Part shown: positions 23,386-39,885 of the stretch, one piece after another
How the letters are laid out: each line of letters begins with the position of its first letter
Numbering within the stretch: the first letter of the stretch is position 1
Assembly (NCBI GenBank): GCA_945900775.1
Contig: CAMDJP010000003.1
Location: 1 to 64,000 of the forward strand
Reading direction: 5' to 3'
Length of the DNA: 64,000 bases
DNA from: Akkermansia muciniphila
GTDB lineage: Bacteria; Verrucomicrobiota; Verrucomicrobiia; Limisphaerales; SIAT01
Program-made: the position numbers and the translations under genes
The notes under the pieces: model-generated
What the model was told of the DNA's origin: nothing
What the model saw: only the letters and a program-made list of their open reading frames with translations
Database searches by the model: none

Positions 23386-25092
23386 TCACTTCGTCGTGCC
23401 GTTCACGCGCCTGATCTCGCGTAAGTCATCCGCCGACAGCACCACCGCACCAATCGACGGATCCTCCACCACCACCGCGCCGTTGCGCATCGTGATGGCC
23501 TTGGCGTGCAGCAACGCACCCGAAGGAAGTGCCACGCGGAGCAGCACGCCGGCGGGCGGCATTCGCGGCACATCGCGCAGAGAGACCGCCAACACCTCCG
23601 GCAGTGCATAGGCCTGTAGACCGAAGAGCACCGAGCTCACGGTCACACGGCCTCCCTCGATACCCTTGAACTCGCCATCCACGAAGTCGCCGTTGGCCAG
23701 CAGGACGCCTTTGCGGCCCGCAGGAATCTTCTCCACCGTGCGCGAGGTGAGCGGTTGAAGATACAGGCGCGCGACATTCACAAGCGAGAGCGACGGCGGC
23801 GAGTGCGCGGAGCCGAAGCGGATCGCGGTGTCGTCGGCGGTCTGGATCGGTGCGGGCAGGAGCGAACCACCCCACGTCAGTACGCCCGCCGCCTGGATTT
23901 CGCCGTCATCATCGCCGGCGGGAATCACTCGGTGGAACGGCGGCGGCGGCACGCCCGGGAAAAGTTGGCTGGACGGGATCAACGCTTTCGGGGTCGACGG
24001 GCTGCTCCAGGACAGTCGCGCCGTGCAACCGCCCTGCCGGTTCATCGTCTCCATTCGCACCTCGTAACGCTTGCCTACCTCGAGCGCCAGGCTGCCGGTC
24101 AATTCGCCACGCGGCACGGCGAACAGCTCATTCAGGAGCGGTTTGCCGTTCACCCAAAGCCGCACTCCTTCATCTGACTCAACGTGGAAAGTGTAGGTCT
24201 CGGAATGTTTCGTCTCGAGCTGGCCGGTCCAGCGTACGCTGTAATCTTCCGCCGCCACGTCTGCTGCCGGCGAGTTGGTCCACGCGAAATTCACCACCGG
24301 ATCCACGCGTACCACGGCGTCGCCGAAAAAGAAGCGGCTCTTGAAGTAGGTCGCGAGAAGGCCATTCAGTGCGCCGAGCTTCGCCGCAGGCAAATCGGGC
24401 GGACTGGCTGGATACAACTGGCTCCGTGGCACGATGCTCTTAGCGAAACCCGGGCCGCTCCAGAAGAGCCGCACGCGTGCGTTGCCCACGTTATCGAAAT
24501 ATTCCACACGCAGGTCGTAGCGCCGCGCCGCTTCGAGTCGCACCACACCATTCGTTTCGCCCGACTCCTGCTTCTGCCATTTCTCGAGCTTGAGATCGTT
24601 CCCGAGTTGCATTCGCCCGCCGTCATCGGTCGCCAGCCAGAATGTGTAGAGACCACCGACCGGCGCCTCGATCTGGCCGCTCCAGCGGACGGTGAAATAA
24701 TCCCGTGGAAGATCGAATACCGGCTCGCGCGCGCCCCAGTTGAAATCAATCGCTTCATCCACGCGATAGATGGCTCGACCGGAAAAGTTCGGTCGCTCGT
24801 AGTAGGCACCGACCAGCCCCGTGCCACGGCCCGCATTCGGGAACTTCGCCGTGAGCAACGGATGATTCTCGGGCAGCTCAAACGTCGCCGAGAGCAGGTT
24901 CGTCAGTGCCACGCGCACTGCGGCGCCTTTCACAGGAATCACCTCCACCACACCGGGGGGCACTAGGCGTACCAAGCCGCTGTGCGTCTGACCATCAAGC
25001 GTGCGAACGGTGCCCGCCTCCACGTCGAGCAGACAGAAAAGGAGAAGCACGAGGCACAGCCAACGCGCGCGCGGCGGGAAGCTCGGTTTCAT
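23386..25092 (-). CDS. Exported double-PA14-domain protein, last gene of the MoxR operon
   Basis: The 568-residue protein has a signal peptide (RWLCLVLLLFCLLDVEA). A short beta module (26-75, GTVRTLDGQTHSGLV) comes first, then two PA14 domains. The first (about 91-232) has GLVGAYYERPNFSG, YFTVRWSGQIEAP and FWLATDDGGRM. The second (about 240-385) has GLLATYFKSRFFFGD, YSVRWTGQLETK and VESDEGVRLWVNG. PA14 domains bind carbohydrate. A C-terminal module (403-568, beginning GVLTWGG) is clearly homologous to residues 97-262 of the upstream coiled-coil protein, as is the N-terminal module. Its ATG overlaps the preceding stop as ATGA. Probable role: a secreted glycan-binding component. Confidence 0.85.
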   Translation of the reverse strand: MKPSFPPRARWLCLVLLLFCLLDVEAGTVRTLDGQTHSGLVRLVPPGVVEVIPVKGAAVRVALTNLLSATFELPENHPLLTAKFPNAGRGTGLVGAYYERPNFSGRAIYRVDEAIDFNWGAREPVFDLPRDYFTVRWSGQIEAPVGGLYTFWLATDDGGRMQLGNDLKLEKWQKQESGETNGVVRLEAARRYDLRVEYFDNVGNARVRLFWSGPGFAKSIVPRSQLYPASPPDLPAAKLGALNGLLATYFKSRFFFGDAVVRVDPVVNFAWTNSPAADVAAEDYSVRWTGQLETKHSETYTFHVESDEGVRLWVNGKPLLNELFAVPRGELTGSLALEVGKRYEVRMETMNRQGGCTARLSWSSPSTPKALIPSSQLFPGVPPPPFHRVIPAGDDDGEIQAAGVLTWGGSLLPAPIQTADDTAIRFGSAHSPPSLSLVNVARLYLQPLTSRTVEKIPAGRKGVLLANGDFVDGEFKGIEGGRVTVSSVLFGLQAYALPEVLAVSLRDVPRMPPAGVLLRVALPSGALLHAKAITMRNGAVVVEDPSIGAVVLSADDLREIRRVNGTTK

Positions 25093-38844: not shown

Positions 38845-39885
38845 TCAGGCGAGCGTGCCGTGCTTGGGCACCGTCTCGAGAATCTTCCGTACGATGTCGT
38901 CGGCGGTGACGTTCTCACTCTGAGCCGCGAAGTTCGGGATGATGCGGTGGCGAAGCACCGGCGCAGCCACGGCGGCGACATCGTCGCAGCTCACGTACAC
39001 TTGGCCCTTCAGCACCGCACGTGCCTTGGCGGCGAGGATGAGGTTGATGCCCGCGCGCGGGCCAGCGCCCCACGTAAGCCACTTCTTGCAGAAATCGGCC
39101 GCCTCAGGCGTCTTGATGCGTGTGACACGCACGATCTTCTCCGCATAGGCGAAGACCTGCGGAGCAACGGGCATGCGGCGCACCGTCTCCTGCAGCGAGA
39201 GAATGTCCTCCTCGCTCAGCACCGCCTGCGGCTTCGCGCCGCCGACGCCGGTGGCCATCTGCATAATCTGCAACTCCTCCTGCGTGCTCGGGTAATCCAC
39301 CGCGATCATGAACATGAAACGGTCGAGCTGCGCCTCCGGCAGCGGGTAGGTGCCCTCCTGCTCGATCGGGTTCTGCGTGGCGAGCACGAAGAACGGGTTT
39401 GGCAGCGGATAATCGACGCCGCCGACCGTCACCTTGCGCTCCTGCATCGCCTCGAGCATCGCGGCCTGCGTCTTGGGCGGCGTACGATTGATTTCGTCCG
39501 CCAGCAACATGTTGGCGAAAATCGGGCCCTTGAGAAACTTCAGCTCGCGGCCGCCGGTGGTCTGGTTCTGGTACAGCACCTCCGTGCCGGTGATATCGCT
39601 CGGCATCAGGTCGGGCGTGAACTGGATGCGCTTGAAGGCGAGGTGGAGTGTCTGCGCCAGCGACGAGACGAGCAGCGTCTTCGCGAGGCCGGGCACGCCA
39701 ACCAGCAGCGCGTGGCTGCGGGTGAAGATGGCGATGAGCACCTGCTCGATCACTTCGTCTTGGCCAACAATCGCTTTGCTAAGCTCGGCCTTGATTGCTG
39801 CGCGCGCGGCCTTCAGCCGCTCGAGGGCCTTCAAATCCTTGTCCGCCAGTTCTGGCTTCGTAAAGTCAATAGTCGTCGTGCTCAT
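38845..39885 (-). CDS. moxR: MoxR-family AAA+ ATPase
   Basis: This 346-residue AAA+ ATPase starts at ATG 39885 (an in-frame GTG lies one codon upstream). It has the MoxR opening AIVGQDEVIEQVLIAI, Walker A GVPGLAKT, LMPSDITGTEVL, Walker B LLADEINRTPPKTQAAMLEAM, sensor 1 FVLATQNPIEQEGTY and PEAQLDRFMF. MoxR proteins are chaperone-like ATPases that mature or insert metal into VWA-domain partners, and here three VWA-like proteins follow in the same unit. It is the first gene of the nine-gene minus-strand operon. An inverted repeat lies 34 bases upstream. Confidence 0.95.
   Translation of the reverse strand: MSTTTIDFTKPELADKDLKALERLKAARAAIKAELSKAIVGQDEVIEQVLIAIFTRSHALLVGVPGLAKTLLVSSLAQTLHLAFKRIQFTPDLMPSDITGTEVLYQNQTTGGRELKFLKGPIFANMLLADEINRTPPKTQAAMLEAMQERKVTVGGVDYPLPNPFFVLATQNPIEQEGTYPLPEAQLDRFMFMIAVDYPSTQEELQIMQMATGVGGAKPQAVLSEEDILSLQETVRRMPVAPQVFAYAEKIVRVTRIKTPEAADFCKKWLTWGAGPRAGINLILAAKARAVLKGQVYVSCDDVAAVAAPVLRHRIIPNFAAQSENVTADDIVRKILETVPKHGTLA

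Follow-up and report, generated by a model that had tools for sequence, protein, structure and literature searches.

Introduction

Among the described systems closest to the locus treated here is the cmdA-D operon of Rhizobium leguminosarum (RL3499-RL3502), reportedly described by Vanderlinde et al. in 2011. The accessible part of one account ties this related operon to cell morphology and envelope integrity (PMC5700661). In a second MoxR system, the NorQ hexamer acts together with NorD, whose metal-ion-dependent adhesion site (MIDAS) is needed for activity and not for NorQ binding, according to the part of the paper that is accessible (PMC9976466). The envelope role of MoxR-DUF58-VWA operons is still open, partly for want of identified outer partners. 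Here, we describe a nine-gene cluster on the minus strand (positions 23386-39885) of a 64,000-nt stretch of contig CAMDJP010000003.1 (assembly GCA_945900775.1, deposited as Akkermansia muciniphila and placed in the order Limisphaerales of the Verrucomicrobiota), hereafter the window, with a transcription order running from moxR to a double-PA14 gene. Judged by sequence, the first five genes (MoxR, DUF58, BatA-type, VWA and short DUF4175) are a MoxR-DUF58-VWA operon of known kind, and they are followed by genes for a coil protein, an alpha/alpha toroid and two proteins that share a barrel domain. The genes after DUF4175 probably belong with the MoxR operon as one system.

Results

Co-inheritance and gene order

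We profiled four parts of the cluster in 58 genomes of the order, using cut-offs of >500 bits for the toroid orthologue and of E up to 1e-6 and E up to 1e-8 for the barrel domain and the coil N-terminal domain, respectively. The toroid orthologue and the barrel domain each occur in 18 genomes; the count is 17 for the short DUF4175 and 16 for the coil N-terminal domain. All carriers fall within one set of 18 genomes, and at these thresholds the remaining 40 have none of the four parts. Within the set, the short DUF4175 is missing from G054 (57% complete), and the coil N-terminal domain is missing from G010, in which the coil C-terminal tail is present, and from G040, where the toroid contig ends. 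Since the parts lie on different contigs in several genomes, their co-occurrence exceeds mere adjacency. An earlier first-pass annotation of this locus had linked the exported proteins to the ATPase operon, as putative clients or parts of a surface or cell-wall structure; the link to the operon is borne out by the occurrence of orthologues of the parts in the same genomes even where the loci are split. An RpoB tree was built for 53 genomes, 15 of them carriers (G010, G020, G034, G054 and G056 had no RpoB match and were left out). The carrier label requires 5 changes on this tree, 4 of them forced by starred branches, compared with a mean of 13.2 changes after shuffling.

Across a phylum-wide sample of 194 genomes, the toroid profile matched 17 at E up to 1e-60, and an orthologue-level toroid was found in the window's own genome only (601 bits; next genome, 282 bits), so that the orthologue set has no wide distribution within this sample. 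Outside the order, toroid orthologues are known from named loci only, under depositors' organism labels that are partly doubtful. L055, L061 and other loci come from records of metagenome-assembled genomes labelled Akkermansia muciniphila or Proteobacteria, with toroids near those of this order, and these labels look wrong.

Gene order was counted in the 17 order-level genomes with a short DUF4175, two being fragments at contig ends. DUF4175, coil and toroid are consecutive in seven (G000, G001, G002, G013, G014, G025 and G038), the remaining core genes of G014 not being adjacent to them. The DUF4175/coil junction is split in G020, G031, G039, G040, G041, G042, G047 and G049, G027 is split at least between coil and toroid, and the order in G010 is unjudgeable, as the contigs end. 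Among 80 named loci, which partly repeat the 58 genomes, the coil gene precedes the toroid gene in 51 of the 74 judgeable cases and a barrel gene follows it in 58 of 75. Measured gaps are <=60 nt at 47 of the 51 junctions between coil and toroid and at 51 of the 59 between toroid and barrel gene. In L106 (Chthoniobacter flavus Ellin428, a cultivated strain), a toroid and barrel-like pieces are present, and neither coil nor DUF4175 was seen in the 10 kb upstream. L110 was counted here as a coil-toroid neighbour; its apparent coil-toroid fusion protein, considered as proof of contact, was rejected because the fusion arises artificially from an ambiguous base in the stop codon that separates the genes.

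The window's own genome (a 2.57 Mb assembly in 74 contigs, 91% complete) holds three paralogous clusters, C8 (L052), C7 (L053) and C33 (L148), each with moxR-DUF58-BatA-VWA-DUF4175 and, later, a toroid gene. C8 has one extra gene between DUF58 and BatA, and in C33 the toroid is followed by two weakly barrel-like proteins. These paralogues bear on the possibility, which we consider fairly unlikely, that two systems merely adjoin. In that case the MoxR-DUF58-VWA-DUF4175 operon would have a housekeeping role, and the exported coil-toroid-barrel unit would be independent of it in both promoter and function. The fall of the split at the DUF4175/coil junction in several relatives, together with the 125-nt gap at that junction in the window, would suit such an arrangement; however, short DUF4175 and toroid orthologues are found together in 17 of the 18 genomes, split ones included, and all three paralogous clusters likewise join the toroid to the MoxR core.

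The features of the cluster are collected in Table 1. All nine same-strand genes proposed by the first-pass annotation are present, mostly with short gaps or 4-base overlaps; in transcription order, the junctions measure 60, 3, 10, -4, 125, -4, 12 and -4 nt. The coil/toroid overlap assumes a GTG start at 28202, and an ATG start at 28193 would leave a gap of 5 nt.

Table 1 Coordinates of the nine genes and their domains in the window.
Feature	Position	Strand	Evidence or remark
moxR, AAA+ ATPase P0001, 346 aa from ATG	38845..39885	-	Pfam AAA_3 5.8e-63, AAA_lid_2
DUF58 protein, VWA fold, P0002, 301 aa	37879..38784	-	Pfam DUF58 1.2e-45, VWA_2
BatA-type membrane protein, VWA + ThuA-like fold, P0003, 725 aa	35698..37875	-	Pfam BatA, VWA_2, ThuA; TIGR02226 two_anch
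Second VWA membrane protein P0004, 826 aa from ATG	33207..35687	-	Pfam VWA, DUF7408
Short DUF4175 protein P0005, 557 aa from ATG	31537..33210	-	Pfam DUF4175 4.2e-08
125-nt gap, DUF4175/coil junction, largest in cluster	31412..31536	-	Operon split point in several relatives
Predicted exported coil / low-complexity protein P0006, 1070 aa from ATG	28199..31411	-	
Coil protein, conserved N-terminal domain	30764..31375	-	Profile A6, 16/58 genomes
Coil protein, conserved C-terminal tail	28214..28420	-	C6 profile; paralogues and the long C33 DUF4175 protein have comparable ends
Predicted exported alpha/alpha toroid P0007	27153..28202	-	Pfam SQHop_cyclase_C and others; orthologue in 18/58 genomes
Barrel-domain + helical protein P0008, 683 aa	25089..27140	-	
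Barrel domain of P0008	26385..26852	-	Profile A7
Double-PA14 + barrel-domain protein P0009, 568 aa	23386..25092	-	Pfam PA14 1.5e-51, two stretches; model pLDDT 82
First PA14 domain of P0009	24409..24819	-	Pfam
Second PA14 domain of P0009	23956..24363	-	Pfam
Barrel domain of P0009	23413..23886	-	Profile A7

Upstream of moxR lies an opposite-strand gene with its start at 40324. Both sister species have a barrel-domain gene directly upstream of moxR (L034 97-1488 and L035 135-1487), the protein in L034 being DUF1349-like, and the window has the divergent gene at that place instead. A tRNA gene (23249-23322, same strand) stands 63 nt behind the double-PA14 gene, and an Rfam scan of the window found two tRNAs and nothing else. 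The terminator scan marked no terminator-like site on the minus strand within 31412-31536. Over the whole scan, 5 promoter-like sites were found vs 2.5 expected (sd 1.7). Terminator-like sites number 28 vs 17.6 expected (sd 4.2); 20 of the 28 are on the plus strand, 11 of those within the low-complexity gene. Neither scan is used as support.

The MoxR core and the coil protein

The families assigned by the first-pass annotation (moxR, DUF58, BatA-type, VWA, DUF4175, toroid and double PA14) are all matched by Pfam. MoxR P0001 scores 211.1 bits against AAA_3, with AAA_lid_2 behind it, and a motif scan found its nucleotide-binding motifs intact (GxPGxxKT at 64, LLADE at ~127-128, GAGPRA at 274); its bpMoxR (PF20030) match of 45.3 bits (cut-off 27) falls far under the AAA_3 score. 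MIDAS-type DxSxS motifs are found at residue 92 of P0002, 98 of P0003 and 106 of P0004. A hydropathy scan marked no hydrophobic segment in P0002. Both VWA membrane proteins carry hydrophobic stretches near their N- and C-terminal ends (in P0003 at 6-24, 56-74 and ~695-721), a placement from which most of each protein is probably outside the inner membrane, as is probably also the case for the DUF4175 protein. P0004 had been called amidotransferase-type, a label that can apply to the fold only; its sequence contains no Cys, and glutamine-amidotransferase activity is therefore not expected. P0005 matches DUF4175 (PF13779) with 32.1 bits against a curated cut-off of 27.3 and covers only positions 182-335 of the 825 in the profile, being a member of a distinct short subfamily present in 17 of the 58 genomes. 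The one paper found for DUF4175 by itself concerns, in its accessible part, an Acinetobacter cell-division protein (PMC7481262) and is not used as support here. Pfam searches of the nine proteins found no TPR family at E up to 1, no beta-propeller family and no TolQ/TolR (MotA_ExbB, ExbD) or Pal domain; the MotA_ExbB matches of the window's own genome lie on other contigs than the window's.

The 1070-residue protein P0006, annotated at first as low-complexity, proved to be the clear coil of the cluster, with a 3.5-residue periodicity of 0.057 over residues 230-800 vs 0.018 for shuffles (sd 0.005), whereas P0008, the protein named coiled-coil at that stage, is only weakly periodic (0.026 vs 0.018, sd 0.006). 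P0006 ends in a Gly/Gln-rich stretch followed by the conserved tail of ~70 residues. A comparable C-terminal tail is found in C33 on a single 1036-aa DUF4175 protein, with the toroid directly after it, and in C8 on a 560-aa coil protein that follows a 550-aa DUF4175 protein. Because the long protein of C33 and the pair in C8 share this tail, the coil protein looks, at the level of sequence, like a C-terminal half separated from a long DUF4175 protein, which hints at its origin. All of the last four proteins are apparently exported, as suggested by signal-like N-terminal stretches seen by eye; the hydropathy scan marks three of the four, P0008 not being among them.

The toroid

P0007 matches the Pfam toroid families of squalene cyclases and prenyltransferases, including SQHop_cyclase_C, and its structural model is confident, with a predicted local distance difference test (pLDDT) score of 89.6. 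The best structural match of the model is squalene-hopene cyclase (Z 27.9), with GH76 enzymes at Z 24-25 and GH76 together with epimerases in a Z range of 22-25; Foldseek alone ranks the transaldolase AprG at the top. No function was assigned from any fold. The DxDD motif is the catalytic motif of class II terpene cyclases, and Cys-x-Glu-Gln is the thioester motif of complement-type toroids. In a set of 41 toroid sequences (51-90% identical to the window protein, with 68 invariant columns), neither DxDD (0/41) nor the thioester motif (pattern C[GLA]EQ, 0/41) was found, and 39 end in a C-terminus of the YLPLYQR kind. By its sequence, the toroid is thus related to the cyclases but lacks their catalytic motif.

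Could the toroid nevertheless be an enzyme acting on glycans or lipids, matured or carried by the operon and brought to its substrate by the barrel proteins? The many aromatic or charged residues among the 68 invariant columns, and a fold near the cyclases, GH76 enzymes and epimerases, are what such an enzyme might display. The complete lack of DxDD and of the thioester motif, the two sites scored, speaks against it, and we consider this explanation unlikely.

Toroids are also met in other settings. In L152 (10909-17903, G038:C61), a TPR protein, ExbB and ExbD precede a 577-aa protein in which a hydrophobic stretch is joined by a linker to a C-terminal toroid; this toroid belongs to the same wide family and occupies the place where TonB or TolA might be expected. 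The idea that toroids generally stand beside an ExbB/ExbD motor was dropped, since few shared places were seen by eye among the matches listed for the 58 genomes. L145 (9319-14708, G000:C51) encodes a TPR protein and then a 1356-aa protein that has hydrophobic stretches near its N-terminus, a toroid in its C-terminal part and a very long region rich in Ser, Gly and Ala. L146 (9033-14380, G000:C10) encodes two adjoining proteins that unite PD40 (TolB-like propeller) repeats with a toroid.

The barrel domain and its modules

The last two proteins of the cluster share a domain of ~158 residues (34% identity, E 1.9e-21) that the first-pass annotation had overlooked. We call it the barrel domain, a name of our own taken from its all-beta model and from a paralogue with an Hfq-like match that is weak and falls short of the cut-off (E 0.0016). 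Pfam modules were counted in 58 barrel proteins, comprising the two of the window and 56 of the 59 found behind toroids, with the proviso that one protein may count twice: PA14 occurs in 21, NPCBM in 14 and DUF1349 in 10. We take PA14 and DUF1349 to be carbohydrate-binding-type modules, and NPCBM is one by its Pfam name. Because these modules alternate, the barrel domain is, on sequence grounds, the constant part and the carbohydrate-binding-type module the variable part, PA14 being only one choice. The view that exactly the last four proteins form the unit is not supported: the constant parts are the coil, the toroid and the barrel domain, PA14 is one of several interchangeable modules, and the helical part of P0008 has relatives only in the window's genus, apart from one weak match in L074.

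In L070, L071, L072, L074, L075, L077 and L079, a single protein carries three PA14 domains, the barrel domain and a long C-terminal region, an architecture that seems, from the sequences, to be divided over two genes in the window's genus. The PA14 match of P0009 (PF07691) reaches 174.5 bits against a curated cut-off of 24, in two stretches. At the site of the Asp-Asp calcium motif of PA14 lectins, the first domain has DDG and the second DEG. The closest solved structures of the PA14 pair are 6qdi and 6qe7 (32-34% identity over ~290 columns).

That the last two genes are hitch-hikers, genus-level glycan-binding proteins standing by chance behind the toroid, is highly improbable, since whole or partial relatives of the PA14 protein in 52 of the 58 genomes and a varying module type are offset by a barrel domain present in the 18 toroid genomes and in 0 of the 40 others (E 1e-6), several on another contig, and by a barrel gene behind the toroid in most of the judgeable named loci (58/75).

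Discussion

We propose that the nine genes encode one envelope system of two modules, the MoxR core and the coil-toroid-barrel set. The first module is evident from the protein families present, and the second from its conservation and joint inheritance. The cytosolic MoxR ATPase would work with the DUF58 VWA protein, and the BatA-type, second VWA and DUF4175 proteins would be the inner-membrane proteins of a complex that is remodeled by ATP hydrolysis in MoxR, relayed via the MIDAS site of DUF58. The coil would span the periplasm from DUF4175 to the toroid, a predicted contact, and the toroid may serve as an adaptor, binding and holding the barrel proteins through a second predicted contact; these would grip envelope or wall polysaccharide. 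The outcome would be the building or maintenance of the envelope, as reported for the related Rhizobium operon. As worded here, the chain from ATPase to membrane complex, coil, toroid, barrel protein and glycan is tentative, somewhat short of an even chance.

Several points weigh against treating the cluster as one system. Conservation of gene order in relatives, the test set beforehand in the first-pass annotation, gave a divided result: DUF4175, coil and toroid are consecutive in 7 of the 17 genomes, the operon is split in 9, so that co-transcription is not general, and one is unjudgeable. The window itself has 125 nt between the two modules, and only 16 of 35 judgeable named loci have DUF4175 and VWA genes upstream of the toroid. 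At E up to 0.001, weaker relatives of the toroid are found in 46 and of DUF4175 in 44 of the 58 genomes, and co-inheritance therefore holds at the orthologue level only. The RpoB tree is a quick, single-gene tree in which 24 of 50 inner branches are open and two rows, both carriers, are half-filled. C7 has both a 1001-aa DUF4175 protein and, next to it, a separate 920-aa coil protein, which does not agree with a simple split of a long DUF4175 protein. Finally, bat deletion in Leptospira biflexa left morphology and growth unchanged, according to the accessible part of the report (PMC3557215).

With the one-system proposal, a co-inherited set of outer partners for a MoxR-DUF58-VWA operon can now be named, namely the coil, the toroid and a barrel domain whose accompanying glycan-binding-type modules are exchangeable. 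Its phyletic pattern and split point are given, and the predicted DUF4175-coil-toroid-barrel chain and glycan ligand are both testable. The MoxR core is already known in kind, and the coil-toroid-barrel extension is one for which we found no description in titles and abstract starts, in a literature search that was thin on subscription papers and did not include bioRxiv preprints.

In the Tol-Pal system, an energised inner-membrane complex is combined with a long coil in the periplasm and a partner that binds the envelope. The proposed system resembles it, by analogy only, in its energised membrane complex, coil and envelope binder, and differs in that the cluster of the window is ATP-driven and that no TolQ, TolR or Pal domains were found in its nine proteins by Pfam. 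A bolder form of our proposal, which we regard as quite unlikely, would make the cluster an ATP-powered counterpart of Tol-Pal: a MoxR/DUF58 motor would work the periplasmic coil via the BatA, VWA and DUF4175 proteins, the coil C-terminal tail would dock on the non-catalytic toroid, the toroid would hold glycan-bound barrel proteins, and the AAA+ work would thereby move or tension the outer envelope of Verrucomicrobiota.

Single parts of the cluster have described counterparts as well. Squalene-hopene cyclases and prenyltransferases share the toroid fold and the sequence family, and the toroid of the window differs from them in lacking DxDD, in being apparently exported and in standing in a MoxR operon. 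The anti-sigma-factor protein of Clostridium clariflavum (6qdi, 6qe7) has tandem PA14 domains like P0009, which in turn has a barrel domain, lies behind a toroid gene and has no anti-sigma domain detected by Pfam. Compared with the MoxR-VWA-beta-propeller conflict systems, no propeller partner was found among the nine proteins, and a search of the paper on those systems for DUF58, BatA, PA14 and squalene gave no match (PMC7159879). The NorQ/NorD pair is like the window in that a MoxR ATPase acts by way of a MIDAS-bearing VWA partner, as the accessible part of its description has it (PMC9976466), and unlike it in having a metalloenzyme target, whereas the targets here are putatively membrane or periplasmic proteins. 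Two further MoxR-type operons are treated in the accessible part of PMC5700661. With cmdA-D, compared by description and not by sequence, the window has in common a MoxR-type operon, a Gram-negative host and the link to envelope integrity, and that part of the text mentions no coil, toroid or barrel proteins for cmdA-D. The Bat operon of Bacteroides, Leptospira and Borrelia likewise has MoxR, DUF58 and BatA-type VWA proteins (PMC5700661). In its narrow sense, the Bat operon includes a TPR protein (BatC/BatE), and the nine-gene cluster, in which Pfam found no TPR family, has the coil-toroid-barrel extension instead.

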